DNA from: Tetracentron sinense
Taxonomy: Eukaryota > Streptophyta > Magnoliopsida > Trochodendrales > Trochodendraceae
Direction of reading: 5' to 3'
Length of the DNA: 64,000 nucleotides
Assembly (NCBI GenBank): GCA_015143295.1
Contig: CM026553.1
Coordinates: forward strand, 434,001-498,000
The notes under the pieces were generated by a model that ran no database searches, had not been told where the DNA came from, and saw only the letters and a program-made list of their open reading frames with translations. Shown one piece after another: positions 741 through 58,594 of this stretch (position 1 is its first letter; every line of letters begins with the position of its first letter). The translations under genes were made by a program, and so were the position numbers.

Positions 741-1390
741 TGAGCAAAGGATGAATGCAGGGTCTTCAGGCTTTATCTTCATTTGACTTGTTCTTCTTCG
801 AGCAGGAACACTATTCACTAACCATTGTTTTGATTATGGAATTAGCCAACACTAAATACATGACTTTTACATTCGTTATATTACATAGAGATAAATACTT
901 GTACCCGTACCTAGTCATAGTATCTCAATATCCTCTCATATATTTTTGGAAACAGATGTTAGTGCCCGTACCTAGTCATAGTACACTAACATCCTTTCAT
1001 ATTTCTTGAAAACAGATACTAGTGCTCGTACCTGGTCAAAGTACACTAGATCCTTTCATATTCTTATTAACTTATGAACTTTTTCTTCTTTTCTTATGAA
1101 CCTTTCTTATGATCTTTTTACTTATGAAACTTATGAACTTTTTCATATGATCTTTTACTTTTGAGTCTTATGAGACATCTTGATCATACATCCATACATT
1201 TGCATAGTGATTGTGAGTATTAGTCATGCCTAGAAACTTGTAAGCATCATAAGTACGTAGGAGTATCATGGTAATCATAGAGAGTAATTAAAACATGGGA
1301 CTATATCATGGAGTTGCATTTATGAAGATAACATAGCATACACATGGCTACTTAGCCTAGTTTGTAAAAACATAACTTCATGGATAAAGG
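741..1390 (-). mobile_element. Older LTR remnant with hairpin units
   Basis: On the minus strand, 885-1056 contains three units related to the hairpin arrays of the 43-58 kb LTR family. The clearest pairs arms GATGTTAGTG and CACTAACATC around a loop containing GACTAGGTACGGG. Neither LTR end could be fixed. The stretch is non-coding and is best read as a decayed internal part of a chromovirus-type LTR next to the LTR at 1-740. The hairpin similarity is direct; the family assignment is inference. Confidence 0.45.
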
Positions 1391-6150: not shown

Positions 6151-6804
6151 ACACTCCTTGACCATTTTGCCTTAGCCAACCTACTTTATGCTTTTGGGAT
6201 ATTTTGGGGGGCTTTTTAGGGATTTTAACAAACCCCTTAGCCTATAAATACCCCATTTTGTGGGGTTAGAGTTAGAAAATTCTAAGGCAGAGAAAAGGAA
6301 GAGAAAAGAGAGAGAAGAAAGAAGAGAAAGCTAGGGTTTGGGCAAGGGTCAAAAAAGTGAACTTTGATTTGTTTCTCAAGTCCATTCTTGCTTCCACAAC
6401 TATTCTAAAGTGCTAAGACTGTAGGGATTCGGTCTCGAAAGGTAGATACACTCTACTAGCTTCTTCTGCCATAATTTCTATTGGAAAACCATGATGGAGA
6501 CCCAATGTGCTTTGATGTGAACTAGTGGGGAATCCTACTAGTTTCATTGTGATAATTTTATGCATTAAACCATGAAAAGAAAAGTGATGTTGGATGAACT
6601 CAAGTGTGTTACTCTGTGTGTTTTGCCTATGCTATCATTTTGAACGAAATAGAAAAGCATGTGCCATGTGTGATGTGTTCCACTGTCTACTATGTTCACT
6701 CACAATTGCCTATGAACACGTGTATTACATGATCGAGCTTTCGTATGTGTATGTGTATCGGAAAAGCAAAGTAAAAGATGAGGAACAAATTAAGTGGTTA
6801 TTGG

Positions 6805-7080
6805 GAGGATGCTAGTGGACTTTACACCACTTTAGGGTAAGCACTAGTCATCTGATCTCAAGTAAAACTATGTGTATTGGAAGGATGCAAATGGACACTT
6901 ACCAATCTAGGTAGGGCATCGGGCATCGGATTCCAAGTAAAGATATGTGCAAAGATACCAACGGGAAGGTTGGTTAAGGATTCTAGTATGCTCAGACCGG
7001 GTACGGCTACTAGACATGCTCCATGTGTATGTGAAAGGATGCTAATGGACTCTTACCAATCTAGGTAAGGCATTAGGCAA
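6805..7080 (+). repeat. Degenerate tandem hairpins in the LTR leader
   Basis: Several inverted repeats follow one another. At 6807 arms GATGCTAGTG and CACTAGTCATC pair with one bulge. Near 7040 outer arms TAATG/CATTA enclose an inner stem CTTACC-AATCTA-GGTAAG. Near 6887 the same inner stem has a G-U type change (CTTACC/GGTAGG). The arms resemble those of the 46.8, 52.1 and 57.5 kb arrays but the loops differ, so this is a diverged member of the same kind of array. Confidence 0.5.
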
Positions 7081-7215
7081 AGTCAAGTGTAATCTCCCAT
7101 AATAAGCAATGTGCAAAGCAAGTGAAATATGTCATGCGTAAAGTAAAAGATACAAAGAAGCCACTGAAGAATGTGATTTCAGAAGAAAGAAATGAAAAGT
7201 ATATGTTTTGCCGCA

Positions 7216-25810: not shown

Positions 25811-25842
25811 GTACGGCTGAGCATGGAATACTCAGCGAGTAC
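25811..25842 (-). repeat. Conserved terminal LTR stem-loop
   Basis: GTACTCGCTGAGTATTCCAT-like sequence on the minus strand, with inner arms CTGAGTAT and ATGCTCAG (one mismatch) and outer GTAC/GTAC. The same element occurs in all chromovirus LTRs of the window (33370, 38003, 39373, 47452, 52829 and 58192 regions), always followed by a TATGTCGGCAGGT-like phrase or its worn form. Confidence 0.7.
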
Positions 25843-26140
25843 CAAATGCTAACCAACAGTCATAGCAAAACCATAGCAGTATAGAAAGCAGGAAGTAGTT
25901 CACATATATAAAGCAGGAACAATTTATATCATCACAAGAAAGTAAAGCAGTTTATAATCATGCTTCAATTCGTAAAAGCCGATAAAATCCTTGAAAACAT
26001 CGTGCACTAGACTTGACTTAAAACACCCTTTTCATGCTTGAAAACTTGTCTTGTCTGTCCTGTCTTGTCATATCATGTCGTTTCATGCGTGTCATGCCAT
26101 GTCATGCTTGCTTAGAAAATAAACGTGTTCATGCTACTTG

Positions 26141-26412
26141 TGAGGGAAGGGAGACCCTTCTTCCTAAATACTCATGCTTGCCATGCCATGTATCTTGCTC
26201 GCTTTGAAAATAAACTACTTGTGGGGGAAGGGAGACCCTTCTTCCTGAATGCTCATGCTTGCCATGTCATGTATCTTGCTCGCTTGAAAAATAAATTACT
26301 TGTGAAGGAAGGGAGACCCTTCTTCCTAAATGCTCATGCTTGCCATGCCATGTATCTTGCTCGCTTGGAAAATAAACTACTTGTGAGGGAAGGGAGACCC
26401 TTCTTCCTAAAT
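26141..26412 (-). repeat. Four 80-81 bp tandem repeats with GAAGGG-AGA-CCCTTC hairpin
   Basis: Units begin near 26141, 26221, 26302 and 26383. Each contains the perfect hairpin GAAGGG-AGA-CCCTTC and the phrase TGCCATGTATCTTGCTCG (one base varies). In the other LTR of the element units lie near 33701 and 33781 and, after an insertion, near 34636 and 34706. Confidence 0.75.
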
Positions 26413-27307
26413 GTATGATAGTCTTGTTCTTGCCAAAAGCGAGGTAAAACATATCGTAGGATATGTCCCACCTCTAATTCTCATTCTTGAAAACCTCGGT
26501 AAATCATGTCATGCATGTCGTGCTCGTGGAAACGTGTGCATACTTGCATTTAAATTTAAATATGACAATTGGGTAATTCAAAGTACATATAACATCAATA
26601 ATTTGAGCAAGTCAATATTCATGCAATTTAGGGAAAGCAAGGAAGCACACTATCATAGGCCCTAGTAATTTCCATAATTAATTAAGCATGTATTTCTTAA
26701 TTTACAACTCATTTTATTCACCTTGACATTTCATCAAACATGGGGTGTGTTCATTATTTATTAAACCTACATCATGCTTTTCTAGGTGGATTGATGTTCA
26801 CATCACACATGTATGTTCATTATAGATACAATGCCCTCCCCATTTCATTCATCACATCATTCACATGGCATCCATTCGCCAATATCCATCTCCATTCACA
26901 CCATTCACACATTACAACTCATTATTATAGTTATGGATGGGGGAAAACAAAGAATAGCAAAGAAAAGAGAAACTATAACTAAGAGGGTAGCACAAGGTAC
27001 CAACCTTGCCAAATGAGGGAAGAAACCCCCTTGCGAAACGTGCGTGAGTTGCTGCCCTAGCTTGGGGAAAGTGCTCCTCACGAGCTTGAACCGAGAACTT
27101 GGAGAGACACAAGCTTGAAGTGATCTAGGGTTCTTAAACCCCTTTGATTTCTTCTCCAAAGCAAACCCTAGGTTTAGAATCTCCTTCTCCTATTTATTTA
27201 GCTCTCAAAATACTCTAAGTATTGAGAATGAGCCCTAAAGCTCGGGCAAGCCTTATATGTAAAGAGTTTAACACCCAAATACCAAAAATTCCCTTAATGA
27301 AATTCTG

Positions 27308-37575: not shown

Positions 37576-39830
37576 TGTCGCGACCTAGAACCCACCCTAG
37601 GAGTTAGAGTGAATCTTGGACGACTTATCATGACCTATATGACGTGCTTGTCAAACCATCCTGCAAAACTCTTGGAGCATATACAAAAGAAGACATAATA
37701 GTGGAAGCATATCTAATATGGCACAGCGGAAGTCAAATAAAAGCCTCTTTGTATATATACATGATCAAAGTTTTGTACAAAAGAGAAATGAAAATAAAGA
37801 AGGTTCAGACATGCCCACCAAAATACATGGGTATAAATCTCTCATGCTCACCCACACTCACTTAGAATTTATCACCTAATAATAGCCTTCTACACGAGGC
37901 TCCTAAGTAGGGACCTCCTCGATGTACTCCTCCTCCACCCATGGGCCAGGAGCACAAATGTCAAAAGGAGTAGCTGCTCTACTATCACCTGCCAACATGA
38001 GATGTACGACTGAGCATGGAATACTCTGCGGGTACGAAATACTAACCAACATTCATTAAGGGCTTTATTGTCTTTTGGGTGTTACACCCTTCCCTATAAG
38101 GGCTTGCTTGAGCTTTGGGTCCCCACACACTACAGTTAGCAACATTTTGAGAGAGAGTGAGAGAGGAGAAAGAGGGTTCTAACCTAGGGTTTCAACTTGA
38201 GAGAAATCAAGGGTTTGAGAACCCAAGATCATCCCCAAGGCTTGGATTCTTCAAATCCAAGGCAAAGCACGTGAGGAACACTTCCTCCAAGCTCGACAGC
38301 AACCCCACGCACGTTCCGAAGGGTTCTTCGTCTTTTCAAGGTCGGTACCCTATGCTACCCTCCTAGTCATGTCTTTTCCTCTTTTCTCTTTTTATGGTTT
38401 TTCCCCAAATTCAAAGCATGATAATATGTTGGGATGAATGGATGGAGATGGATGGTCGTGTATGGGCGATGGATGTCGTGTGTATGTTTGTGATGAATGA
38501 AATGGGAAGGGCATTGTACCAATAATGAACATACACGAATGTTGTGAACATTAATCCATCTAGAAAAGCATGATGTAGGCTTTAACCATAATGTACACAC
38601 CAAGTGTTTGATGAAATGCCAAGGTGAAGAATTAGTACTAGAAATGCATGTATAAATTTATTCGCTTTTTATGATGGCGTGAATATTCCTATGAGTGGAA
38701 ATGAATGCTAGTCCATGTATTGTTGAACTTCAAATATCACGTTTAATTACAAACTAAAGCATGTACACGACTTCACGAGCACGGCATGCATGACATGGTT
38801 TATCGGCGCTTTTCAAGACAAGGGTTTTATTTTCGATTCACGAACACTATGACAAGGCCAAACGTAACGGTTGGTAAGTAGAGGTAGGGCATATCTTACG
38901 ATATGTTTTGCCTCGCTTTTGACAAGAACAAGTGCATTTCATTGAAAGAGGGCGTTCTATACCACCCTCCCTCTCACGTGCATCTCATTGAAAGAGGGGT
39001 CTCCCCTCCCTCGCAAATGCATCTCATTGAAAGAGGGGGTTTCACACCACCCTCCCTCTCAAGTGCATCTCACAAGTTATATGATTCCAAGCAAGCAAGC
39101 ATGATCACAAGCAAGAATATGACATGACACGTATGGCATGATAATACAAGCACGACTCGACAAGACCAAGCAAGACAAAATATGATAAGACAAGTTTTCA
39201 AACACGAAAAGAGTATTTTAAGTCAACTCAAGCACATGAGGTTTTCAAGAGTTTTTCCGACTTTGATATGATGCAAGCATAAACTATAAATTGTTTACTT
39301 TCCTGTCAATCATATAAACTGCTTCCTGCTTTATTTCCATTATTATCTTGCTATGACTGTTGGTTAGCATTCGGTACCCGCTGAGTATTCCATGATCAGC
39401 CGTACTTTGATGTCGGCAGGTGTTAGTGGTGTGCCCGCTCCTTTTGACATATGTGCTCCCGGCCCATGGGAGGAAGAGGAGTACGTTGAGGAGGTCCCTG
39501 CTAAGGAGCCTTATGCGGAGGGCTATTATTAGGTGGTAGATTCTGGGTGAGTGTGGATGATCAGGAGAGGTTCATACCCATGTATTTTGGCGGGCATGTC
39601 CGTACTTTCTTTTGTTCAATTCATTTTTGTATAAAACTTGGATCACATGTCTATACATAGAGGTTTTGGTTAGACTTCCACTGTGCCATGTTAGTTTATG
39701 CTTCCGCTATTGTGTTCTCTATTGTATATTCTCTGTATGTTTTGCAAGATGGTTTGTCAAGCATGTCATGTAGGTCATGATAAGTCATCCAAGATTCACT
39801 AACTCCTAGGGTGGGTTTTGGGTCACGACA
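37576..39830. mobile_element. Fold-back chimera of two inverted chromovirus LTRs
   Basis: 37576-38053 is the 3' end of a Tekay-like LTR on the minus strand (starts TGTCGCGACC on the plus strand). 38054-39830 is a plus-strand LTR of the same family from just before TATA (38095-38100) to the end GGGTCACGACA. The terminal ~470 bp are therefore inverted repeats of each other. The junction has TCAT shared by both sides. The U3 with the palindrome array is lost. Each end lacks a primer site outside it, so both are outer 3' LTR ends. Flanks TTAGC and AGTGA do not match. Confidence 0.7.
38935..39072 (+). repeat. Tandem hairpin repeats in the chimeric LTR
   Basis: Three units with TGCAT(C/T)TCATTGAAAGAGGG followed by a complementary pyrimidine arm: GAGGGG-TCT-CCCCTC in the middle unit and AGAGGG...CCCTCT in the outer two. 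They sit where the GAAGGG-AGA-CCCTTC repeats sit in the LTRs at 26141 and 33701 but have different arm sequences. Confidence 0.6.
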
Positions 39831-42736: not shown

Positions 42737-43350
42737 TGTAGCGCCCCGAATTTCACAAGCACTGTTCATATGAATAGGGCAGTGAATAGTGCCATGAATA
42801 GTATCTACAGCTGAATGCCTAAGGTATGGTCTTGAAAGATTCTCAACAAAAATGAGGGATTGGTTTTCAACTTTGTATGAACAATATATGTTAATGTGTA
42901 TGAAGGCCTTAGGAACGTTTTTATAGGTTATGGGTGTTGAAAATAAAAGCTGGAAAAGGTTCTAGTTGTTAAAAAGAGGGAATTCTCTACATGACCTCAA
43001 CTAGGAGAAGTATAGTTTTGTCACCTCTTATCGGAATTGAGAGATTCTTAAACCATTAGAACCGAATTGGAATCTTCTTTGAAGTTCATGTTTATCACTT
43101 TTCCATAATTTGAGTCAAAGTTAAGTCAAATGTGAGTTTTCCATCATTTTGTCTACTAAAATTGTAGACTAGTCAGCTTTACAGCCCATTCAGACCATTT
43201 GAAACTCCGAATTTGGAGTTGTACACAAAATATTTTCCCCTTCAAAAGAAGAGTTCAACGCAAATTGAATTGTCAAAACCCGATAAGCGAGTCAAAAGTT
43301 ATGGTCAAAATACTAAAACAGGGTAAAAATCAATCAGAATCCGGGGGGAG

Positions 43351-43482
43351 CTACGATCAATCGCACCTTAGTGCGATCAATCGCACATAAACTACGATCA
43401 ATTGCATACATGCGAGTTTTTTTTTGTTCTTTCAGGTCCAAGTGTGATCAATCGCACCTATAGTGCGATCAATCGCACTCGC
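43351..43482 (+). promoter_or_regulatory. Palindrome array (TGCGAT-CA-ATCGCA type), first LTR
   Basis: Five units of the inverted repeat TGCGAT-CA-ATCGCA: three in a row from 43351 at 20-22 bp steps and two more at 43444 and 43465. Several carry one-arm mutations (ACGATCAATCGCA, GATCAATTGCAT). Confidence 0.65.
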
Positions 43483-43631
43483 GCCCAGTTTGCTCTTAAA
43501 ACCGAGGATTTTGGGGATTTTGGGGGAACCTAAACCTAGAGAAGGATTGAGAGAGAAAAAGGGAAGGAAGATTGGGGATTTCTAAGAGGGGTTTTGTGGA
43601 GATCAAGGGGAGTCCAAATCAAACTTGGATT

Positions 43632-45849
43632 TGAAGGGGGATCCGGATAAAAATTTATGTGAAAACTGGATCCCCAAGATCTTAACACCATAGAAAGCAT
43701 CATAATTATCTAAGAGTTTTAGTCATATCACCTCGATGAATGCTTTTCACCAGTGAAGCTTAATCCACTCGAACCGTCAGAACTCTTTGTAGAGATTTCT
43801 CCAAAAAAATACTAGAAGCTCAATCCTTGTTTTTTCTATCCCCACGAAGCTTTAGAATCTCCTTTGGAATTATTGAAGCAAGAGGAAGAAGATGGATCAA
43901 TGGTGTAGACCTTCTATCACCAAAAATACTAAGGTTCAAAACCCTAGAAAAGCAAAACCCAATTTGCACCACCTATATAGCTCACGAAATTCCCTAGGGG
44001 TCTCCCTAGGGTCTCACGGTTTGGAGAGAGAGAGGAGAGAAGAGAAAAAATTCTGGAGAAAAGTGTTTTAAGGTCTAGGGTGTTGGGGTATTTATAGACT
44101 ATGATCCTACCCTAATCCTACTCCAACTTGATCTTGTCTAACAGGATTTATTAATTAACAATAACTCTTATTATTAATTAAATAAACTCCTACTTAATCT
44201 ATAACTACTTTAGTTATAGTAATCCTACTAATTAAAGAGTCCCCATTATAAGAGGATTCCTTAATTAAAAGGGATAAGTCAACATCCTAACTCAAAAGAG
44301 GAAACCTAGTCAAACTATGAGTCCACAAGGGGGGGCGTGAGCACTAAAAGGGCATGAGTTTTGGGGAGCTTTAAACTCCTTTTTGCAATCCAACTTTATG
44401 TCATCTTAATCCTTATTGCAATCCAACCATTGGATTTAAATTCCATAATTAAGGGAATTATATTTCAACAATTATTCAATTAAACAAATCCTAATCCAAT
44501 TAGGATTCCTCAAGTGGGCGCTCCACCCTAGGGTTTAAACCCATGGGCTTTGGCCCATATTAAAGGTCCATATTAAATGGATTTATGGATATGGGTCAAA
44601 CCCATTTCTCCTTTAATTATGTTAATTAAATAATTATCAAAATAATCCCTAGATTTAAATTAACAATTAATTTAAACCATAGATTAACTTTTAATCTATT
44701 TAATTAAATGATTAACTTTTAATCACTTAAATAATTGATTAACTTTTAATCAATTAAGGAGCTTGTATTTCTTATGTGAGCACCTCCACAGATTGCTCTG
44801 GGACATTCTTACCCTGGCTTATCCAATGTTATCTCATTGACCCTAAACGGGAATTACATCGGAATTGCAAGTGACGTGAGATATCTATGTTGCAATTGAA
44901 TCCCAGCGTATGAACATTAACCATTATGGATCCCGTCACATGAACTTTTAAATTCGATTTATCCTTCCAAATACATTATCCCTAATGGGTCTTCGAGATT
45001 AACATACTATCTAACCCATAGCCCATTGTAAATCATCCGGGTTTCCAAGACTTATGATTAAGCCATGAGAAACAATTTCTCATGAAAAACATTTTGAGAA
45101 AATCCTTTTATAAGTATAATACCTTTTAATAAAAGTATATTTCAAAACTTATTCTTTTTTCAAAATCACCTGCGCAGGATTTGAACTTAATCAATTTTCT
45201 TACCTGGAACTTGGATAATCTCTCAAATTAATGAGCATTGACTTCTTGTTTGAAATTTATCATGACTCGAAACTCTTTCTAACTGTCCAACTGTCACTCT
45301 ATTGTATTCCCTAAATTATAAAATATGTTGGTGGAATCAAAACAGTCAGATCACCGCTCAGTTATAGATGAACTCATCAGATCTAAGGATCATTGAAACC
45401 GTTCAATGTGAATGAGAGACCAACTATCTGATAGTATGTTTATGCAAGAGGTCTCTCATTGAATACAATCAGTCAGTGTACTTTTAAGCACCCATATGCT
45501 GATGTGTAGTCTCCACTACAATAGTTCGAGATAAAACTACATCTCAACTATTGAGAACATCTTAGCATTCTGACAGCCATATAAGTGAAGTGCCCAGCTT
45601 CACTCATAGCAGTGACTATATAAGGTATAAGGAACCAGAAAGTTATAAATTTCTGTGATACTCTAATCACATAACTTTCCTACAATATATCCTATGGACC
45701 TTTATCGATATCTCATATCGTATAGATCATCTCATGATCATGGTCAATTACCCATAATGAATACACAATAGATTAAGAAGAAGTATTTATTAATCAAATT
45801 AATAAGGTTCTAACAATCTAAATGACTTTTCTGGGCATCATGTCTAACA
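43632..45849 (-). mobile_element. Solo LTR, about 2.2 kb, nested in the first LTR
   Basis: Minus-strand LTR from TGTTAGACATGATGCCC (45849) to CCCCCTTCA (43632), flanked by GGATT and GGATC, a 5-bp target duplication with one change. The sister LTRs at 51060 and 56485 lack it, which confirms insertion. It has a TATA box (TATAAAT, 44096-44090) on the minus strand with a GA-rich (here CT on plus) leader after it. No coding or primer site remains, so unequal recombination removed the body. The family is copia-like from the TGTTAG terminus, but not certain. Confidence 0.8.
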
Positions 45850-45980
45850 GGATCATCCTCAAGTGGTGGTGTCTTCTTCCTCAAGCTTGGAGCATTCTCT
45901 ATAAGTGAGATCACCCTCTATCAAGTTGGGGGTTCTCCAAATCAATGGGTTTTCTTCAAGATCAAGCTTTGATCTTCAAG

Positions 45981-45981
45981 G
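45981..45981 (+). other. Donor-like site in the leader of the first LTR
   Basis: GATCTTCAAG/GTTAGTACACCC. The same site is at 51218 and 56641 in the sister LTRs. The acceptor-like TTGTTCTCAG just before gag is at 48707. Confidence 0.5.
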
Positions 45982-46762
45982 TTAGTACACCCTTACTAGC
46001 TCACTTAGTAATAACCTAGATTCCTTTCGAAATGATAATGGTCTGAGCATATGTGAACCCAAATTTCTACCTTAATGAATACACCCATGTGTTTGATGAA
46101 ATTTCGGAATGAGAAAATATGAAATAAATTACTACAAGAATCTTGAACACCACATGTTTGATAGGATGCATGAATGAGTTAAAAACCTAAGCCTAAGGAA
46201 ACATGAATAAAAGGGTTGAAGAAATGTTGCATGCAAGGTGTTTGATGTAATGTATGTGTGAAATGTGGAACAAAAGCTATGAGATATGAACTAGGGATCC
46301 TTCCCCAAAATTGAGTAAATATAGTAATATGCTTTATGTGTTTCCTAAATTTCTCATGTGTCTATAATTGTTGAAATGCTATATGTTGCTCTAAGTGTTC
46401 GAACCATGATTTAGGGATTTTCACAAATTTGAAAATTTTGCTAATATGCTTTATGTGATTCGTAAATTTTCGCATGCTTATAGAAACATAGAATGCCATA
46501 AGATGTTCCATAAATAGTTCACGTTATCACGATTGTTATGAATCGCTATACACACACACGCATGCATGAATCGAGATTTCCCTAGTACATGTAATTGAGA
46601 AACCAAGCAATGATAAGATTCTTGATTTATGAAACGAATGATAATACCGTACATCGGGACTATCAAGCGTAGGGCATACCCTTGGATATGTCAGACCTAG
46701 CTCATAAGAAAACAAGACAAGAACAAGTCAAGAAAAGAATTAAGAATTGTAAAACATGGAAG

Positions 46763-47122
46763 GATGTTAGTGTACTAAGACCAGGTATGGGCACAAACAT
46801 GTGTTCCCCAACAAGCATGAAAGGATACTAGTATACTAAGACCAGGTACGGGCACTAGTATCTGTTTCCAAGACATGATAATATTAAAGTATGCTAGTGT
46901 ACTAAGACCAGGTACAGGCACTAACTTATGTTTCCAAGACAATTATGAAAGGGTGTTAATGTACTAAGACCGGGTACGGGTATTAACATTTGTTTCCAAC
47001 AAGTATGAGAGGATACTTGTATACTAAGACCAGGTATGGGTACTAGTATCTGTCTCCAAACAAGAATAAAGAATTATGAAAGGATGTTTAGTGTACTAAG
47101 ATCAGGTACTGGCACTATCATC
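46763..47122 (+). repeat. Six tandem hairpins, first LTR
   Basis: Six units about 62-67 bp apart share the loop TACTAAGACCAGGTAC(GGG). Arms differ by unit: GATGTTAGTG, GATACTAGT, TATGCTAGTG, GTTAATG, GATACTTGTA and GATGTTTAGTG, each facing its near reverse complement. In this copy some pairs are broken (third unit CACTAACTTA), as expected of a dead, drifting copy. Confidence 0.75.
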
Positions 47123-47451
47123 TCTTTCCAAGTAAGCAAGTTAACAAGAAAACACGCATGACTCTCACAAGACAAGAACAAGACAAGATTCTAGTATGTC
47201 CGCCCATTTCATAGTTCGGGCACTAGTTAAAAACAAGACAAGAAACATGAGATGCATAAAGAACTCACGAGACGTATGAGGAAATTGAAATACGTTTTTA
47301 TTAAAGCATGAATATAATGCATGATTTAAGAGAGATGTTCAAGATTTAGATTATTATTTTGTTTTAGTTTCCACACTCTGATTTTGTATATTTATGATGA
47401 ACTGTGTCCTATATGGCATGTTAATGTTATTACTATTGTTAGCTAGTAGCT

Positions 47452-47485
47452 TGTACTCGCTGAGTATTTCGTACTCAGTCGTACA
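47452..47485 (+). repeat. Terminal LTR stem-loop
   Basis: Outer TGTAC/GTACA and inner CTGAGTAT/GTACTCAG pair around a short loop; worn compared with the copy at 58192-58225, where the inner arms pair perfectly (CTGAGTAT/ATACTCAG). Confidence 0.65.
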
Positions 47486-48237
47486 TTTTATGTCGGCTGG
47501 TTCATTCTACATGGTATCCCAGGCCATTAGATCGAGGTGGATTATGGAGGGCAAGAGCCTTCTTGGGATGTTCTTGATGATGATAGGAGTCTTGACATAT
47601 GATCTAAGGGTTGAGTGATACGGAGGGAAAGACATGTATTTTTGGGTTTATTTCTGGGGATATTGTATCACTTGATGTTGGTAACTCGAGTTAAGGATTT
47701 TATGTACCTGTCTTAATTTATCTTCAGTTATGGAAATCAATTGTACTTGGAATACAGTTAAGTTATTAAAGAAATTTTCAGTTCATTATTTAGCTTGCCT
47801 TGTATGCTCTGCAGGATGGTTGTTGTGATAAATAACAAGCCCAAATATCGCCTAACTCCTAGGGGTACTTTGGGACGTTATAGAAGTGCTATCAGAGCCT
47901 AGGTATTAGGTTCTCTAGGGTCGGTTAGGGTTCGATTCCACGATTAATACAAGGCATTAGGTTTAAGAAAAGAGTTGTATTCCAACTGTAGACTAATCAC
48001 TTAGTCTGTCTATATCAGGTTGATTTCAACCGAAGTTAGTGTCTATTTTTGCTAGGAAAACCAAAATTTTGGACAAACTCATGAATGTTTGATGCACGTT
48101 TCAAGATACAGATGCGCATTATCTGCAACATGTTCTATACTCAGTGCTCATTCCAAAGTTCTAGATACAGATGCGCGTTAATTCTGCAGCATGTTCTAGA
48201 CCCAATGCTCAATCCAAAATGATAAACATTTTTCAGA

Positions 48238-48420
48238 TCGCATAAGCATCATGCATCGCATAAGCATCTTGCATGGCATAGCATCATGCATGGCATAATC
48301 ATCGTACATGGCATAAACATCATGCATCGCATAAGCATCGTACATGGCATGCATTTCATACACATCATAAGCATCACACACATCCTACATGCATCATGTA
48401 GATCTTAGAAGCATCATACA
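48238..48420 (+). repeat. GCAT(A/C)-rich short repeat in the leader
   Basis: Irregular tandem units such as GCATAAGCATC, ATGCATGGCATA and CATCGTACATGGCAT between the primer site and gag. The homologous stretch is at 53618-53800. Unit length varies around 18-22 bp. Imperfect self-complementarity (GCATGC, ATGCAT) is common. Confidence 0.6.
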
Positions 48421-48716
48421 TGACACCAAGATTAAGAGGATTTTACTTAAATAACTCAAATCAATAAACTACTCATTAGTCTTAGTCTTAAGCCAGTTAA
48501 TGTCTTAAGTATGTAACCGGTTAATATCTTAACCGAGTGTGAGAACTTTGTGTCGTATGCTAGGAAACATTAATTGTATGCTTATACTATCTTACTGTAT
48601 GTCTCGATATATTATTATGTACCTTATAAACATTAGATGACCTTCGAAATTGGGGGTATAGATAAGTTAGTTTCCAAGTTAGGCTCATGCTTTACTATTG
48701 TTCTCAGGATTCAATC

Positions 48717-49910
48717 ATGACGTGACAATCGGGGTCGCGTTTACCATACTAGAGGAAAGGGAGGTGACACTCCGGTAGAGGACGAGCAACCTGACCTTAC
48801 ACAAGTCTTAGGATCGATAGCTGAGACCTTAGCTATGCTCGTAGCCAGGCAACCTGCCACTCCTCCTCCAAACAAAGCACAAGCAGGAATAGAGGAATTT
48901 TAGAGGACGAGACCTCCAGTATTCTATGGTGGCATAGACCTATTGGTTGCAGAAGCTTGGGTTAGACAGCTAGAGAAGTTGTTTTCCGTTTTGATGCCTA
49001 TGGAGGCGGAGAAAGTTGCATGGGTCACCTTTATGATGGAAGTTGAGGCCGATCACTGGTGGAGATCCACCATCAGAATGAGGGACTTGACTCGAGTAGG
49101 TCAAGAGTGGACTTGGGAATAGTTGCTCGATGCCTTCTACAAGAAATACTTCCCAGTAGGAGTTAGAGAGAAGAAAGAACTAGAGTTCATTACCTTAGAG
49201 CAGTGGAATATGACAGTGGCTGAGTACGAAGCCAAGTTCACCGAACTATCGAGGTTCGCTCCATATTTAATAGCCACGGAGGCAATGAAGGGGAAGAAAT
49301 TTGAGTGGGGATTGCAGGACCACATCAAAGACAGGGTCTCTACGCCGAAGTTGTGGATAAGGCCCAGTTGGCAGAAACGAATGTTGAGGAATGTTACAAG
49401 AGAAGAGAAATGTTGAGAGGCCAGTCCAGTGGCTCAACACAGCCATAGAGGAGGGCCAGAATGACCCCTACCTTTTCTCTAGACCAACGCAGATGCAGAG
49501 TCATTCCCTTGCACCTAAGGCCCCTCACCCTACTACTACGCAAGTTACTCGACAGGTGCAACCATCATCTTCTACATCTACATTCGAGTTTTGCAATTAC
49601 TGTAAGAGGAAGCACTTGGTTGGGGATTTTCGAGCTCTTACGGGAGTATGTTACCAGTGCGGTGACATGGGACACCGGATTAGAGATTGTCCAAGCCATC
49701 GGCCACGCGCTCAAACCCAGGGAACTAGACTCCCAAATCGACTGGCTACACAACAGGGGTCCTTGTAAGCTTCGAGGCCCCAGCAGCCTATACAGCCTCC
49801 ACATCAGGCTAATGAGGGCCAAGTTTTTGCTATCTCAGGGCAAGGTGCTCAAACACCTAATGATGTTGCATGAAGGCCGAGAGATAGAAATTTTGGTTTG
49901 TAAAGGATGA
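48717..49910 (+). pseudogene. gag: gag of internal region 1
   Basis: The start ATG at 48717 is followed by a 2-bp loss and a TGA. Further on the gag is clear: VFYGGIDLLVAEAWVRQLEK, DAFYKKYFPVGVREKKELEF, then a Ser/Pro-rich part and the knuckle CYQCGDMGHRIRDC at about 49650-49691. A first, weaker knuckle-like motif (CNYCKRKHLVGDF) has lost its last Cys. No protease follows. An acceptor-like site ends at 48707. Confidence 0.75.
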
Positions 49911-50788
49911 TGTAATGTTGTGTTTCAGTATGTCGCCTATGTGTATAAATGTGTTGGTTATGTTTTATGATATTTTTCACACTTGAAGGAAAAAAATTGA
50001 TTTGTTTGAATGTTGAAGCATCTCACCATTAAGCTAATGCAATTGCTAAAGGCTTCTCCTTTAGTGTTCTGGGAATTTTCTTGAAGGAATAAGTGTGGGA
50101 TAAGTATCCCCACTAATTGTACCGCAGTCCTAATTTCGACGATAAAATTTCTATAAGGGGGGAGAATGTAGTGCCCCGAATTTCACAAGCACTGTTCATG
50201 TAAATAGGCCAGTGAATAGTGTCATGAATAGTATCTACGGTTGAATGCCTAAGGTATGGTCTTGAAAGATTCTCAACGAAAATGAGGGATTTGTTTTCAA
50301 CATTGTATGAACAATATATGTTAATGTGTATGAAAGCCTTAGGAACATTTTCATCGGTTATGGGTGTCGAAATTAAAAGGTAGAAAAGGTTCTTAGTGTT
50401 AAAAAGAGGGAAGTCTCTACATTACCTCAACTAGAGAGAAGTCTAGTTTTGTCACCTCTTATCGGAATTGAGTGATTCTTGAACCCTTAGAACCATAATG
50501 GAATCCTCTTCGAGGGTCATGTTTATCACTTTTCCATAATTTAAGTCGAAGTTAAGTCATATGTGAGTTTTCCATCATTTTGTCAACAGAAATTGTAGAC
50601 TAGTCAGCTTTAGAGCACATTTAGACCATTTAAAACTATGAATTAGGAGTTGTATAAAATTCAAAAGTTATTCCTCTTCTAAATACAAGTTCAACGCAAG
50701 TTGAATCTTCAAAATTCGATAAGCTAGTCAAAAGTTATGGTCAAAATATCAAAACGGGGTGAAAATCAGTTGCAATCCGGGGGGGAAC

Positions 50789-50918
50789 TGCGATCAATCG
50801 CATATCAAGTGCGATCAATCACACATAAACTGTGATCAATCGCATACAAGCGAGTTTTTTTGGGTTCTTTCAGGTCCAAGTGCGATCAATTGAACCTATA
50901 GTGCGATCAATCGCACTC
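50789..50918 (+). promoter_or_regulatory. Palindrome array, second LTR
   Basis: Units of TGCGAT-CA-ATCGCA, five in all, with worn copies (GTGATCAATCGCAT, GCGATCAATTGAAC). Spacing within each cluster is about 20-21 bp. Confidence 0.65.
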
Positions 50919-52138
50919 GCACCAAGTTTGCTCTTAAAACCGAGGATTTTGGAGATTTTAGGGGAACCTAAACCTAGAGAAGGATTGAGAGAGGGAAAGG
51001 GAAGGAAGATTGGGGATTTCTAAGAGGAGTTTTGTGGAGATTAAGGGGAGTCCAAATCAAGCTTGAATCATCCTCTTAAGCAAGGATCTTCATCCTCAAG
51101 TGGTGGTGTCTTCTTCCTCAAACTTGGAGCATTCTCTACAAGTGAGATCACCCTCTATCAAGTTGGGGGTTCTCCAAATCGAGAGATTTTCTCCAAGATC
51201 ATGCTTTGATCTTCAAGGTTAGTACACCCTTACAAGCTTATATAGTAATAACCTATATTCCTTTTGAAATGATAATGGATTGAGCATGTGTGAACCCAAA
51301 TTTCTACCTTAAACTAATAAATTCCTAAATTATACAAGATAAACTAATTATAGAAGGATGTGTGGGATGTATGGTTGGATGAGGCGATTGGATGCCAAAT
51401 GGTTGTGGTGAATGATGGGAGATGGAAATGATGGAAGGGCATTGTACTCATAATGAATACACCCATGTGTTTGATGAAATGTTGGAATGAGAAAATATGA
51501 AATAAATGACTACAAGAATTTTGAACACCACATGTTTGATAGAATGCATGAATGAGCTGAAAACCTAAGACTAAGGAAACATGAGTAAAGGGTTGAAGAA
51601 ATGTTGCATGCAAGGTGTTTGATGTAATGTATGTGTGAAATGTGGAACAAAAGCTATGAGATATGAACTAGGGATCCTTCCCCAAAATTTAATAAATATG
51701 GTAATATGCTTTATGGGTTTCCTAAATTTCTCATGTGCCTATAATTGTTGAAATGGTATATGTGCTCTAAGTGTTTGAACCGTGATTTAGGGATTTTCTC
51801 CAATTTGAAAATTGTGCTATTATGCTTTATGTGATTCTTAAATTTTCGCATGCCTATAGAAACATAGAATGCCATATGATGTTCCGTAAATAGTTCACGT
51901 TATCACGATTGTCACGAATTGCTATACACACACACACATGCATGAATCGAGATTTCCCTAGTAAATGTAAATGAGAAACCAAGGAATGATAAGACTCTTG
52001 ATTTATGAAACGAATGATAATGCCGGACATCGGGCTGGTCAAGGGTAGGGCGTATCCTCGGATATGTCATACCTGACTCACAAGAAAACAAGACAAGAAC
52101 AAGTCAATAAAAGAATTAAGAATTGTAAACCATGGAAG

Positions 52139-52502
52139 GATGTTAGTGTACTAAATCAGGTACGGGCACTAACATCTGTTTCCCAACAAGCATGAAAGGA
52201 TACTAGTATACTAAGACCAGGTACGGTCACTAGTATCTGCTTCCTAGACATGAATAATATGAAAGTATGCTAGTGTACTAAGACCAGGTACGGGCACTAG
52301 CATATGTTTCCAAGACAAGTATGAAAGGGTGTTAATGTACTAAGACCAGGTACGGGCATTAACATTTGTTTCCAGCAAGTATGAGAGGATACTAGTATAC
52401 TAAGATCAGGTACGGGTACTAGTATCTGTCCCCAAGCAAGAATAAAGAATTATGAAATGATGTTTAGTGTACTAAGACCAGGTACAAGTACAATCATCTG
52501 TT
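52139..52502 (+). repeat. Six tandem hairpins with covarying arms, second LTR
   Basis: Best-preserved set. Arms: unit 1 GATGTTAGTG/CACTAACATC, unit 2 GATACTAGT/ACTAGTATC, unit 3 TATGCTAGTG/CACTAGCATA, unit 4 TGTTAATG/CATTAACA, unit 5 GATACTAGTA/TACTAGTATC. Unit 6 is weaker. The loop TACTAAGACCAGGTACGGG is near-constant, with an inner TAC/GTA pair. Linkers contain TGTTTCCAAG and AAGTATGAAA. Confidence 0.8.
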
Positions 52503-52828
52503 TCCAAGCAAGCAAGTTAACAAGAAAACACGCATGACTCTCACAAGACAAGAACAAGACAAGATCCTAGTATGTCCATCCATTTCATAGTTCGGTTACT
52601 AGTTAAAAACAAGACAAGATACATGAGATGCATAAAGAACTCACGAGACGCATGAGAAAATTGAAATACGTTTTGATTAAGGCATGAATATAATACATGA
52701 TTTAAGATATGATGTTCAAGATTTATATCATTATTTCGTTTTAGTTTCCGCACTCTGATTTTGTATCTTTATGATGAATTGTGTCCTGTATGACATGTTA
52801 ATGTTATTACTATTATTAGCTAGTAGCT

Positions 52829-52862
52829 TGTACTCGCTGAGAATCCCATACTCAGCCGTACA
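52829..52862 (+). repeat. Terminal LTR stem-loop, second LTR
   Basis: TGTAC-TCG-CTGAGAAT-CCC-ATACTCAG-CC-GTACA; one mismatch in the inner stem. It is followed by TTTTATGTCGGCAGGT. Confidence 0.65.
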
Positions 52863-53259
52863 TTTTATGTCGGCAGGTTCATTCCACATAGTATCCCAGG
52901 GCATTAGATCGAGGTGGATTATGGAGGGCAGGAGCCTTCTTGGGATGTTCTTGATGATGATAGGGGTCTTGACATATGACCTTAATGTTGAGTGATACAG
53001 AGGGAGAGACATGTATTTTGGGTTTTATTTATGGGGATATTGTATTACTTGATGTTGGTAACTCGAGTTAAGGATTTTATGTACCTGTCTTAGTTTATCT
53101 TCAGTTATGGAAATCAATTGTACTTGGAATACAGTTAAGTTATTAAAGAAATTTTCAGTTCATATTTAGCTTGACTTGCATGCTCTGTAGGATGGTTGTT
53201 GTGATAAGTAACGAGCCCAAATATTGCCTAACTCCTATGGGGTATTTTGGGGCATTACA

Positions 53260-55569
53260 GAAGTGGTATCAAAGGCTAGGTATTAGGTTCTCTAGGGTCG
53301 GTTAGAGTTCGATACCACAATTAATAGAAGGCATTAGGTTTAAGAAAAGAGTCGTATTCCAAGTGTAGACTAATCACTTAGTCTTTGTCTATATCAAGTT
53401 GATTTCAACCGAAGTTAGTTTCTATTTTCGCTAGAAAAATCAAAATTTTTGACAAGCTCATGGATGTTTGATGCACGTTTCTAGATACAAATACGCATTA
53501 TCTGCAGCATGTTCTAGACTCAATGCTCAGTCCAAAGTTTAAGTTACAGATGCGCGTTAATTTTGCAGCACGTTCTAGACCCAATGCTCAATCCAAAATG
53601 ATAAACATTTTTCAGATCGCATAAGCATCATGCATGGTATAAGCATCATGCATCAAATAAGCATCATGCATGGCATAAGCATCGTACATGGCATAAACAT
53701 CATACAGCGCATAAGCATTGTACATGTCATGCATTTCATACACATCATAAGCATTACACATATCCTGTATGCATCATATAGATCTTAGAAGCATCATACA
53801 TGTCACCAAGATTAAGAGGATTTTACTTAAATAACTCAAATCAATAAATTACTCATTAGTTTTAGTCTTAAGCCAGTTAATGTCTTAAGTATGTAACCGG
53901 TTAATATCTTAACCGAGTGTGAGAACTTAGTATCGTACGCTAGGAAACATTAATTGTTTGCTTATACTATCTTACTGTATGTCTCGATGTATTATTATGT
54001 ACCTTATAAACATTAGATGATCATTGAAATTGGGGGTCTAGATAAGTTGATTTCCAAGTTAGGCTCATGCTTTACTATTGTTCTTAGGATTCAATCATGA
54101 GACGTGGCAATCGGGGTCGCGGTTACTATACTATAGGAAATGGAGGTGACACTCCGGTAGAGGACAAGCAACCCAACCTTACACAAGTCTTAGGGTCGAT
54201 AACTGAGACCTTAGCTATGTTCGCAGCCAGGCAACCTGCCACTCCTCCTCCAACCAAAGCACGGGAAGGAATAGAGGCATTTCTTAGGATGTGGCACCCA
54301 GTATTCTATGGTGGCATAGACCCATTGGTTGCAGAAGCCTGGGTTAGGCAGCTAGAGAAGCTTTTCTCCATTTTGATGCCTATGGAGGTGGAGAAAGTTG
54401 CATGGGCCGCCTTTATGATGGAATGTGAGACCGATGACTGATGGAGATCCGCCATCAGAACGAGGGATTTAACTCGAGCAGGTCATGAGTGGACTTGGGA
54501 AGAGTTGCTTGATATCTTCTACAAGAAATATTTCCCAGTAGGAGTTGGAGAGAAGAAAGAACTAGAGTTCATTACCTTGGAGCAGGGGAATATGCCGCTG
54601 GCCGAGTACGAAGCCAACTTCTTCGAACTATCGAGGTTCGCCCCATATCTAATAGCCACAGAGGCAATGAAGGCCAGGAAATTTGAGAGGGGATTGCAAG
54701 CCCACATCAAAGACAGGGTCTCCATGTTCAGGTATGAGACCTACACCGAAGTTGTGGATAAGGCCCAGTTGACATAAACGAATGTTGAGGAATTCTACAA
54801 GAGGAGAGAAATGATGAGAGGCCAGTCCAGTGGCTCAACACATCCAGAGAGGAGGGCCAAAATGACTCCATACCAGTTCTTTGGATCTACGCAGGTGCAG
54901 AGCCATTCCCTTGCACCTCAAGCCCCTCGCCCTACTACTAAGCAAGTTACTCGACAGGTGCAACCAGCATCTTCTACATCTATGTTCGAGTTCTGCAGTT
55001 ACTGTAAGAGGAAGCACTTGGCTGGGGATTGTCGAGCTCTTACAGGAGCATGTTACCATTGCGGTGACACGGGACACCGGATTAGAGATTGTCCAAGCCG
55101 TCGGCCACGTGCTCAAACCCAGGGAACTAGACTCCCAAATCGACTGCCTACGCAACAGGAGTCCTTTCAAGCTTCGAGGCCCCAGTAGCCCATACAACCT
55201 CCACATCAGGCTAATGGGGGACAATTTTTTGCTATCTCAGGGGAAGGTGCTCAGACACCTAATGATGTTGAATAAAAGCCGAGAGATAGAAATTTTGGTT
55301 TGTAAAGGATGATGTAATGTTGTGTTTCGGTATGTTGCCTATGTGTATAAACGTGTTGGTTATGTTTTATGATATTTTGCACACTTGAAGGAAAAAAATT
55401 AATTTGTTTGAGTGTTTAAGCATCTCGCCATTAAGCTAATGCAACTGCTAAAGGCTTCTCCTTTAGTGTTCTGGGAATGTTCTTGAAGGAATAAGTGAGG
55501 GATAAGTAACCCCACTAATTGTACCGTAGTCCTAATTTCCAGGATGAAATTTCTGTAAGGGGGGGAGAA
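53260..55569 (+). mobile_element. Internal region 2 of the pol-less chromovirus
   Basis: Primer site TGGTATCAAAGG at 53264-53275 (initiator-Met type with a changed base), leader repeat, gag, and polypurine tract AAGGGGGGAGAA ending at 55569. The pol genes are missing at the same junction as in internal region 1, so either the two come from one deleted ancestor or one is a duplicate of the other. Confidence 0.85.
54097..55311 (+). pseudogene. gag: gag of internal region 2 (three stops, no frameshift)
   Basis: ATG 54097 begins MRRGNRGRGYYTIG, nine bases after an acceptor-like TTGTTCTTAG (54087). The frame stays the same to the end: Retrotrans_gag-like VFYGGIDPLVAEAWVRQLEK, FYKKYFPVGVGEKKELEFI, a Pro/Ser-rich part and two knuckles, CSYCKRKHLAGDC and CYHCGDTGHRIRDC (near 55054-55095). 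Stops are TGA at 54439 (a Trp in relatives), TAA at 54775 and TAG at 55186. Gag was probably the only protein of this lineage, working with proteins from full-length relatives. Confidence 0.8.
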
Positions 55570-56188
55570 TGTAGCGCCCCGAATTTCACAAGCAATGTTC
55601 AAGTGAATAGGGCAGTGAATAGTGCCATGAATAGTATCTACGGTTGAATGCCTAAGGTATGGTCTTGAAAGATTCTCAACGAAAAGGAGGGATTGGTTTT
55701 CCACTTTGTATGAAAAATATATGTTAATGTGTATGAAGGCCTTAGGAACGTTTTCATAGGTTATGGGTGTTGAAAATAAAAGGTGGAAAAGGTTCTAGGT
55801 GTTAAAAAGAGGGAAGTCTCTACATGACCTCAACTAGAGAGAAGTCCAATTTTGTCACCTCTTATCAGAATTAAGTGATTCTTAAACCATTAGAACCATA
55901 TTGGAATCCTCTTAGAGGTTTATGTTTATCACATTTCCATAATTTGAGTCAAAGTTAAGTCAAATGTGAGTTTTCCATCATTTTATCTACTAAAATTGCA
56001 GACCAGTCAGCTTTAGAGCCCATTTAGACCTTTTAAAACTCAGAATTAGGACTTGTATACAACAAAAAAGTTGTTCCCCTTCTAAATACAAGTTCAACGC
56101 AATTTTAATCATCAAAATCTGATAGGTGAGTCAAAAGTTATGATCAAAATACCAAAATGGGGTAAAAATCAGTCGGAATCCGGGGGGA

Positions 56189-56340
56189 GTTGCGATCAAT
56201 CGCATATCAAGTGTGATCAATCGCACCTTAGTGTGATCAATCGCACATAAAGTGCGATCAATCGCACCTAAAGTGTGATCAATCGCATACAGGCGAGTTT
56301 TTTTGGGTTCTTTCGGGGTCCAAGCGCGATCAATCGCACT
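56189..56340 (+). promoter_or_regulatory. Palindrome array, third LTR
   Basis: Five TGYGAT-CA-ATCGCA units in a row from 56190 with linkers of 7, 6, 7 and 7 bp (20-21 bp steps), and a sixth near 56325. It is the most regular copy in this family. GTGATC variants break one CpG in the left arm. Confidence 0.7.
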
Positions 56341-57511
56341 AGCACCCAGTTTGCTCTTAAAACCGAGGATTTTGGGGATTTTGGGGGAACCTAAACCTAG
56401 AGAAGGATTGAGAGAGAGAAAGGGAAGGAAGATTGGAGATTTCTAAGTGGGGTTTTTTGGAAATCAAGGGGAATCCAAATCAAGCTTGGATCATCTTCTT
56501 AAGCAAGGATCTTCATCCTCAAGTGGTGGTGTCTTCTTCCTCAAGCTTGGAGCATTCTCTACAAGTGATATCACCCTCTATCAAGTTGGAGGTTCTCCAA
56601 ATCAAGGGGTTTTCTTTAAGATCAAGCTTTGATCTTCAAGGTTAGTACACCCTTACTAGCTCATATAGTAATAACCTAGATTCCTTTTGAAATGATAATG
56701 GTTTGAGCATGTGTGAACCCAAATCTCTACCTTAAACTAATAAATTCCTAAATTATACAAGATAAACTAATTATAGAAGGATGTGTGGGATGTATGGTTG
56801 GATGAGGCGATTGGATGCCAAATGGTTGTGGTGAATGATGGGAGATGGAAATGATGGAAGGGCATTGTATTCATAATGAATATACCCATGTGTTTGATGA
56901 AATGTTGGAATGAGAAAATATGAAATAAATGACTACAAGAATCTTGAACACCACATGTTTGATAGAATGCATGAATGAGTTGAAAACCTAAGACTAACGA
57001 AAGATGAATAAAGGGTTGAAGAAATATTGCATGTAAGGTGTTTGATGTAATGTATGTGTGAAATGTGGAACAAAAGCTATGAGATATGAACTAGGGATCC
57101 TTCCCCAAAATTTAGTAAATATGGTAATATGCTTTATAAGTTTCCTAAATTTCTCATGTGTCTATAATTGTTGAAATGTTATATGTTGGTCTAAGTGTAT
57201 GAATCGTGATTTAGGAATTTTCTCCAATTTGAAAACGTAGAATGCCGTATGATGTTCTGTAAATAGTTCACGTTATCATGATTGTCACGAATTACTATAC
57301 ACACACACGTATGCATGAATCGAGATTTCCCTAGTATATGTAAATGAGAAACCAAGCAATGATAAGACTCTTGATTTATGAAATGAATGATAATGTCGGA
57401 CATCGGGCTGGTTAAGGGTAGGGCATATCCTCGGATATGTCATACCTGGCTCAAAAGAAAACAAAATAAGAACAAGTCAAGAAAAGAATTAAGAAATGTA
57501 AAACAGGGATG

Positions 57512-57873
57512 GATGTTAGTGTACTAAGATCAGGTACGGGCACTAACATATGTTCCTCAATAAGCATGAAAGGATACTAGTGTACTAAGACCAGGTACGG
57601 GCACTAGTATCTGTTTCCAAGACATGAATAATATGAAAGTATGCTAGTGTACTAAAACCGGGTACGGGCACTAGCATATGTTTCCAAGACAAGTATGAAA
57701 TGGTGTTAATGTACTAAGACCAGGTACGGGCATTAACATTTGTTTCTAACAAGGATGAGAGGATACTAGTATACTAAGACCAGGTACGGATACTAGTATC
57801 TGTCTCTAAGCAAGAATATAGAATTATGAAATGATGTTTAGTGTACTAAGACCAGGTACAGGCACTATCATTT
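57512..57873 (+). repeat. Six tandem hairpins, third LTR
   Basis: Same order of units as at 52139. Unit 2 here reads GATACTAGTG/CACTAGTATC, in which the closing pair is G-C where other copies have A-T or no pair, a two-sided difference that keeps the stem. Confidence 0.75.
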
Positions 57874-58191
57874 GTTTTCAAGCAAGAAAGTTAACAAAAA
57901 AACACGCATGACTCTCACAAGACAAGATCCTAGTATGTCCGTCAATTTCATAGTTCGGGTACTAGTTAAAAATAAGACAAGATACATGAGATGCATAAAG
58001 AACTCATGAGACGCATGAGGAAATTGAAATACGTTTTGATTAAAACGTGAATATAATGCATGATTTAAGATATGATGCTCAAGATTTATAATATTATTTC
58101 ATTTTAGTTTCCGCACTCCGATTTTGTATCTTTATGATGAACTGTGTCCTGTATGGCATGTTAATGTTAATACTATTGTTAGCTAATAGCT

Positions 58192-58225
58192 TGTACTCGC
58201 TGAGTATTCCATACTCAGCCGTACA
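58192..58225 (+). repeat. Terminal LTR stem-loop, third LTR
   Basis: TGTAC-TCG-CTGAGTAT-TCC-ATACTCAG-CC-GTACA, perfect in both stems: 8 bp inner and 5 bp outer. Confidence 0.7.
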
Positions 58226-58594
58226 TTTTATGTCGGCAGGTTCATTCTACATGGTATCCCAGGGCATTAGATTGAGGTAGATTATGGAGGGCAGGAGCCT
58301 TCTTGGGATGTTCTTGATGATGATAGGGGTCTTGACATATGACCTTAGGGTTGAGTGATACATAGGGAGAGACATGTATTTTGGGTTTTATTTATGGGGA
58401 TATTGTATTACTTGATGTTGGTAACTCGAGTTAAGGATTTTATGTACCTGTCTTAGTTTATCTTCAGTTATGGAAATCAATTGTACTTGGAATACAGTTA
58501 AGTTATTAAAGAAATTTTCAGTTCATAATTTAGCTTGCCTTGTATGCTCTATAGGATGGTTGTTGTGATAAGTAACAAGCCCAAGGGCGTTACA

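Follow-up and report, generated by a model that had tools for sequence, protein, structure and literature searches.

Little is known about the signals by which plant LTR retrotransposons package their RNA; that of retroviruses, psi, usually extends from U5 to gag. The closest plant case to the hairpin arrays analysed here is that of the Sirevirus palindromes, which are likewise high-copy dyad motifs with predicted structure in plant LTRs; as described, these belong to Ty1/copia elements, have a CGG-CCG core (one element excepted), are located 5' of the TATA box and have been read as cis-regulatory (PMC2829016, PMC10760457). Another likeness, in which the place of the hairpins is judged from sequence, is to retroviral psi/DIS and to BARE, for which conserved packaging and dimerisation signals are reported, with several leader hairpins 5' of gag and a Gag with a zinc knuckle (PMC3735527). 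A structured RNA that promotes mobility has also been described in a plant LTR retrotransposon, namely the ENE of Arabidopsis Evade, a triple-helix element of the 3' UTR with U-rich internal loops (PMC12501189), and in the Triticeae there are complex LTR elements in which two elements have a common LTR (PMC1950507).

The arrays under study occur in the window, that is the whole 64,000-nt stretch of Tetracentron sinense DNA that was analysed. Unlike the Sirevirus palindromes, they belong to Ty3-type elements, their arms vary and covary without a CGG-CCG core, G-U is preferred among their inherited states on one strand, and TATA-like boxes lie 5' of the array in part of the copies. In respect to psi/DIS and BARE they differ in being tandem, with up to ~16 copies, and in lying within the LTR itself, and the packaging role considered below is proposed from sequence alone; in respect to the ENE, the hairpins of the main family (C) show by eye no U-rich tract, and the likeness of the Triticeae elements to the tandem element found here concerns layout only, not hairpins. 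The literature searched, which includes a minority of subscription papers, gave no description of tandem hairpins that covary in the LTRs of Ty3 elements. The two-sided, pairing-preserving changes in arrays of several related retrotransposons point to a working RNA signal rather than to idle repeats.

Host element and hairpin units

Several LTR retrotransposons are present in the window, and the array studied, c2, sits in the middle LTR of a tandem element (42737-58594) arranged as LTR-internal-LTR-internal-LTR. We refer to this element and its genome copies as family C, to another repeat with C-type units as M, to a diverged LTR as D, and to LTRs carrying unrelated hairpins at the homologous place as E; z denotes folding stability relative to shuffles. 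The features of the middle LTR, its surroundings and the sister arrays are the following:

46757..47133, plus strand: array c1 (first LTR of the tandem element), whose six units are ordered as in c2
50167..53259, plus strand: LTR c2, 3093 nt, with TGTAG...TTACA ends, carrying array c2
51215..51226, plus strand: donor-like motif, AAG followed by GTTAGTAC, with counterparts in families C, D and E
52043..52076, plus strand: hairpin H0, just 5' of array c2, present in families C and E (z -3.41)
52133..52187, plus strand: unit 1, arms GATGTTAGTG/CACTAACATC, outer stem GGAA/TTTC (z -3.23)
52193..52248, plus strand: unit 2, arms GATACTAGTA/CACTAGTATC, one A-C mismatch (z -2.71)
52260..52315, plus strand: unit 3, arms TATGCTAGTG/CACTAGCATA (z -3.12)
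52322..52377, plus strand: unit 4, arms GGTGTTAATG/CATTAACATT, two G-U pairs (z -0.80)
52382..52437, plus strand: unit 5, arms GATACTAGTA/TACTAGTATC, outer stem GAGA (z -0.98)
52453..52509, plus strand: unit 6, degraded in c2 (z -0.99)
52836..52877, plus strand: CTGAG/CTCAG hairpin, then the acceptor-like motif GTCGGCAGG (52869-52877)
53264..53274, plus strand: primer-binding-site-like TGGTATCAAAG, adjoining the end of LTR c2
54442..55188, plus strand: gag fragments (Retrotrans_gag and CCHC zinc knuckle), split by in-frame stops in this copy
57506..57883, plus strand: array c3 (third LTR of the tandem element), whose six units are ordered as in c2

The LTR ends, the primer-binding-site-like sequence (which we take to be that for tRNA-Met), the duplicated flanks and the Ty3-type gag identify the host as a Ty3-type LTR retrotransposon. 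The flanks of the tandem element, TAGAT and TAGAC, agree but for one letter and resemble a target duplication that has since been altered at that letter. A domain scan places PF03732 (Retrotrans_gag, E 3.8e-11) and PF00098 (CCHC, E 1.3e-06) within 54442-55188, and Gag with its CCHC knuckle is the sole recognised protein; no pol match was obtained in three scanned frames, taken from the open frames of at least 40 aa listed in both internal regions, and the internal length of 2.3 kb fits a non-autonomous element. From repeat matches, the first LTR of the tandem element carries an insertion of ~2.2 kb (43631-45852).

The array extends over 52133-52509, where a previous sequence-only reading had placed it at 52139-52502, and the arm pairs quoted there (of the TAGTG/CACTA type, each matched by its own reverse complement) are indeed found in it. 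The C/M-type unit of ~56 nt consists of an outer stem of 4 bp, a small interior loop, a middle stem of 10 bp, a 3' bulge CGGG, an inner stem and a conserved loop. Using RNAalifold on 21 window units with no structure supplied, the stem described before was recovered together with a second, outer stem GAAA/UUUC, which covaries too: unit 1 has GGAA/UUCC, and unit 5, like one M unit, has GAGA/UCUC. The arrays c1, c2 and c3 keep an identical order of six units, as had been noticed; the count of about six matched hairpins stands as regards the number per array and less so as regards the matching, with an A-C mismatch in unit 2 of two window copies and a mismatch plus bulge in unit 6 of all three, worst in c2. 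Among other genome copies, 18 of the 22 aligned sixth-position units have all ten middle pairs.

Analysis of the 21 window units evidences two-sided changes at 7 of 18 pairs, in 30 cells. Tree-preserving permutation within the stem columns gives means of 2.2 pairs and 5.2 cells, and none of 2000 permutations reaches 7 pairs or 30 cells; when all columns are open, 7 pairs are reached once in 2000 and 30 cells never. With a simpler shuffle the number of cells is exceptional (0/500) and that of pairs mildly so (28/500), and in an R-scape-like test on the same units the best E is 0.10. Across the three window arrays, 16 of 211 stem positions are variable versus 22 of 113 in loops, bulges and other unit positions, a comparison between parts that differ in base composition. 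Folded alone, the whole of c2 exceeds shuffles in stability only mildly (z -1.86, with 4 of 100 shuffles equally stable), and units 4 to 6 are not more stable than shuffles (z as listed): the signal of the array is covariation, not raw stability.

The core of the loop has 23 matches in the window at three mismatches or fewer, against 1.87 expected. The whole window gave no Rfam match at gathering score, and the 18-base core has no exact match in viral contigs. A covariance model recovered the 21 known units and two new ones, at 6975-7026 (E 2.9e-4) and 6802-6863 (E 1e-3), plus a weak one beside them (E 0.97). The arrays outside the tandem element are:

883..1058, minus strand: array M, three C-type units in another repeat, detected by model matches
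6802..7096, plus strand: array D, in a diverged LTR, with four hairpins that are diverged too; the model gives two of them (E<=0.001) and a weak third (E 0.97), and folding only gives the fourth
26133..26420, minus strand: array E1, in a 3' LTR, units with hairpin GAAGGGTCTCCCTTC; the partner LTR has further such units, at 33693-33863 and at about 34640-34740
38931..39075, plus strand: array E2, three hairpins unrelated in sequence, at the homologous LTR position (z -3.06, -3.39, -1.44)

These four arrays and the outer stem GAAA/UUUC go beyond the sequence-only reading.

Pairing in the genome copies

A search of the genome (1.16 Gb) with the array yielded 1694 first-look candidates, of which 40 were scored and 30 extracted, three being the window's own; the 27 others include near-identical loci that are not independent (L013/L017 and L021/L030). 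From their 166 model matches the best 150 were aligned. They comprise 120 distinct rows with 2160 cells, and 98.2% of these cells hold standard pairs, versus 35.5-46.3% with slid partners; the fraction leans high, as the 16 weakest matches were left out. In these rows 229 cells are double-changed, against 71.2 when shuffled and at most 52 when slid, and the number of double-changed pairs is not above that of column shuffles (8 versus 8.2). The two-sided changes affect 8 of 18 pairs, with pair 12-42 passing through CG, UA and AU, and series of A-U, G-U and G-C are found at pairs 8-45 and 10-43. Three of the 150 rows fit no unit position, which leaves 147 hairpins (from the best 150 of 166 matches) for counts by position: at 108 unit-by-pair places the commonest state is Watson-Crick in 99, G-U in 9 and broken in none, six of the nine G-U places being inner pair 21-29. 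All ten middle-stem pairs are standard, from position 1 to 6, in 22/24, 21/27, 19/23, 22/25, 22/26 and 18/22 units. Chance hairpins are thus ruled out by the excess of core matches, the permutation tests and the pairing of the C copies.

An R-scape-like test with tree-aware nulls was carried out on 138 distinct rows, comprising the C copies and the 21 window units. The five best column pairs overall are structural pairs, and only pair 15-39 is below E 0.05 (0.03), the other double-changed pairs having E 0.5-80; the power of this pairwise test is limited by the few independent lineages. The covariation check suggested by the earlier reading is in this way borne out in part, one of 18 pairs passing singly in family C and none in family D.

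The divergence of the arms was also considered as an avoidance of mispairing between neighbours. Pairing with the own arm is 8.8-10 of 10 and cross-pairing between adjacent units 7.6-8.6, and in all 18 six-unit C arrays, which are related, adjacent cross-pairing is lower than the average over all unit orders; this is a trend only, as among these arrays c1 alone has 5% or fewer of unit orders with adjacent cross-pairing as low, and one of three M arrays is unusual (L091, 6/2000).

For family D, the search gave 647 candidates, with 40 scored; the 30 extracted, among which is the copy of the window itself, have 74-100% identity to the query. Of the 43 pairs predicted by RNAalifold, 16 show two-sided changes; with four of the 43 dropped, the analysis covers 39 pairs, in which 95.5% of cells are paired and 15 pairs are double-changed, in 114 cells. 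Tree-preserving permutation nulls have means of 6.6 pairs and 16.0 cells, none of 1000 matching the observed values, and slid versions give 2-10 cells. Among ten same-branch double changes, seven are common to at least six copies and five are transversional; UA/AU and CG/AU changes occur in this family. Three adjacent pairs of D4 were altered on nearby branches, and one block replacement could account for them. No pair reaches E<0.05 in the R-scape-like test, and D3 and D4 folded alone are no better than shuffles (z -0.15 and -1.16). The larger C and D alignments covary, in agreement with the selection on base pairing that had been claimed, and very probably selection keeps the pairing while the letters of the arms drift, partly via G-U intermediates. 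Cytosine deamination in both arms was rejected as the full cause in view of the transversional double changes in D and of pair 12-42 in C (CG/UA/AU).

Array D precedes an ORF with DUF4283, and its reading as a LINE 5' UTR was discarded, given that the homology of 28 of 29 relatives ends near 7200 and that LTR-like ends adjoin. Within 5622-7200, an LTR-like 3' end abuts an LTR-like 5' start near 5766-5783, and the DUF4283 ORF is at 7310-7927.

Long arrays occur in relatives of family M, whose search gave 1706 first-look candidates, possibly overlapping with the 1694 of C. The relatives L091, L092 and L093 have 16 (one partial), 13 and 9 hairpin matches, among which a few unit types return about every third unit, as if the arrays grew by blocks. 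After dropping two antisense rows of 40, 95.1% of 667 cells are paired; double-changed cells amount to 46 versus 17.0 shuffled (0/2000), with a shuffle that ignores relatedness, and double-changed pairs (5 versus 4.7, 1195/2000) are not unusual. Two of the three M units in the window are not clearly better folded than shuffles. Having C-type hairpins, M is not independent of C in origin.

The E arrays lie between hairpin H0 on the 5' side and the CTGAG/CTCAG hairpin with GTCGGCAGG on the 3' side, and by these shared flanks the C, E1 and E2 arrays are at a homologous place in the LTR, that of D corresponding by order only. The 30 E loci, one being the window's own, have by eye about three to five hairpins each. 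The E2 hairpins are of the type GAGGGGTCTCCCCTC and similar, two of the three folding better than shuffles, and the six E1 hairpins folded (z -0.45 to -1.43) do not surpass shuffles in stability. Of 62 sources, 59 contain H0, which folds well in examples from three families (z -3.4 to -6.1); its stem is kept in most rows via G-U pairs and arm changes, and is altered in c1 and in three other C copies (L006, L019, L027). The CTGAG/CTCAG hairpin (52836-52866) has relatives at 39370-39406 and, on the minus strand, at 25807-25843, and is kept across otherwise dissimilar C and E LTRs.

Selected strand and place in the transcript

Read on the antisense strand, a G-U pair of the sense RNA becomes an A-C mismatch, and the two states can be compared between inherited and private changes. 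In families C and D together, the non-Watson-Crick states present in at least three copies are 29 G-U and 2 A-C, versus 20:22 for private ones (Fisher 3e-5, tree-free). When G-U-majority pairs are removed (four D pairs and six C entries, taken out by hand), the contrast is 19:2 versus 20:22 (9e-4), and counted on trees it is 23:2 on internal branches versus 58:44 at tips (9e-4), the parsimony trees breaking ties by alphabet and hence giving some apparent A-C ancestors. A possible bias in the contrast comes from pairs having been selected with G-U allowed. Private changes would mostly postdate insertion and reflect the mutation spectrum, and shared ones would have gone through active elements; the excess of shared G-U over A-C therefore speaks for selection acting on the sense RNA and against causes at the DNA level, and such selection is likely, as DNA-only causes do not predict a G-U bias. 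Inherited changes reveal what worked and private ones mutation alone, and their G-U:A-C contrast is a simple and general test of sense-RNA selection in repeats, for which families of 647 to 2356 first-look candidates in one genome are a ready-made mutational record of RNA structure. The difference in folding energy between strands was rejected as proof of the sense strand: in four other LTR pieces the sense strand folds better in 20-26 of 27 as well, and the E regions are reversed, being sense-better in only 1 of 30.

TATA-like boxes, taken as exact matches of the CTATAAA/TTATAAAT type, stand 5' of the array at ~1.07-1.14 kb in 8 of the 27 C loci, at ~0.25-0.29 kb in six C loci and at ~0.50-0.58 kb in 10 of the 30 D loci; these are raw counts, with no chance control. 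Taken with the G-U bias, these boxes in part of the copies lend the transcribed LTR assumed in the sequence-only reading a support that is indirect. Placed 3' of the predicted transcription start and 5' of the primer-binding site, the array is probably part of the 5' leader. Donor-like AAG followed by GTNRRTA occurs 5' of the array in 19 of 27 C loci, 27 of 30 E loci and 19 of 30 D loci, against 1-3% after letter shuffling, and an acceptor-like motif 3' of it in 13/27 C, 20/30 E and 9/30 D, against 9-11%, in related copies which are not independent; both are present together in 8 C, 18 E and 6 D loci (32 of 87). The array may lie within an intron of the leader. Against this, introns are described as generally absent from plant LTR elements (PMC12786077).

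Function of the arrays

Our best explanation, to which as a whole we give a probability of about one half, is that in related Ty3-type plant retrotransposons the arrays act as a structured RNA domain of the LTR transcripts, on their sense strand. Since bulge and loop are common to the units and the arms are not, each unit resembles a repeated site for protein binding or for kissing; and because Gag with a CCHC knuckle is the sole recognised protein, the most likely role of the hairpins, held at somewhat less than even odds, is that of a multivalent Gag-binding signal for packaging or dimerisation. Lying between donor-like and acceptor-like motifs, the array would perhaps be carried only by unspliced RNA. 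A more elaborate version, which we hold as rather doubtful, is that of a self-diversifying packaging array in a leader intron: each hairpin would offer the same bulge and loop to Gag, differing arms in neighbours would let each unit fold on itself, the number of units would grow and shrink with the lineage, only unspliced genomic RNA would retain the array, and Ty3 lineages would have replaced the hairpins wholesale (C/M/D versus E) while keeping place and design.

After packaging, which is our first choice, we would place translation control and splicing or export. The region 51050-53259 has 98 ATGs, 12 of them inside the array, and cap scanning to gag through such an ATG-rich leader is implausible, so that the hairpins might promote shunting or entry at an internal site, or mask the ATGs that precede gag; leader structures and shunting are described for plant pararetroviruses (PMC5902531). 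These arrays, however, are many small tandem hairpins and not one long leader hairpin, and with unit numbers from 3 to ~16 such a role appears unlikely. To a similar degree we doubt an element acting on splicing, nuclear export or stability, by which hairpins in a leader intron would govern its retention, or would transport or stabilise the RNA. The donor-like and acceptor-like motifs flanking the array in three families agree with it, as do the structured export elements of mouse IAP/musD (PMC12786077) and the stabilising ENE of Arabidopsis Evade (PMC12501189), whereas the joint presence of both motifs in only the 32 of 87 loci and the general absence of introns from plant LTR elements mentioned above argue against it.

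Maintenance at the DNA level would imply no RNA role, the arms being kept by template switching or quasi-palindrome correction during replication or reverse transcription, or by selection of dyad protein sites. Template switching is indeed able to produce compensatory changes within hairpins (PMC8794818), short palindromes such as ACTAGT are present in some arms, and the neighbouring pairs of D4 changed on nearby branches resemble a block copy. However, G-T and A-C mismatches are handled equally by DNA mechanisms, which does not fit shared states of 29:2 beside private ones of 20:22; the A-U, G-U and G-C series at single pairs and the changed pairs on both sides of a kept interior loop also speak against such maintenance, and a fixed protein site does not favour arms that differ between units. 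We consider it quite improbable, and gene conversion between DNA arms without transcription, which had been named as a possible refutation of the RNA reading, is disfavoured by the inherited states being G-U and not A-C and by the changed pairs flanking the kept interior loop. Least probable are structures facing the host, that is hairpins that feed or dodge small-RNA silencing: stems of ~10 bp are short for a Dicer substrate, and silencing alone gives a transposing element no reason to keep pairing. The proposal follows that made for Sirevirus LTR palindromes, at whose clusters an excess of small RNAs is reported (PMC10760457, citing Bousios 2016).

Other repeated motifs were observed in the window. 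An 18-nt tandem repeat, GCATAAGCATCATGCATG, is found a few hundred bases past the primer-binding site in both internal regions of the tandem element (48240-48350 and 53619-53718), and tandem near-palindromes, TGCGATCAATCGCA, are present in its LTRs 5' of the donor-like motif (50789-50915, 56194-56287 and 43351-43406). Palindromes of the GGTCGACC type lie near 378-430 and 6096-6148, and in another Ty3 element ~26 copies of a 13-nt repeat, AGTGCTTGCTCGT, occupy 16037-16393, shortly 3' of an integrase ORF.
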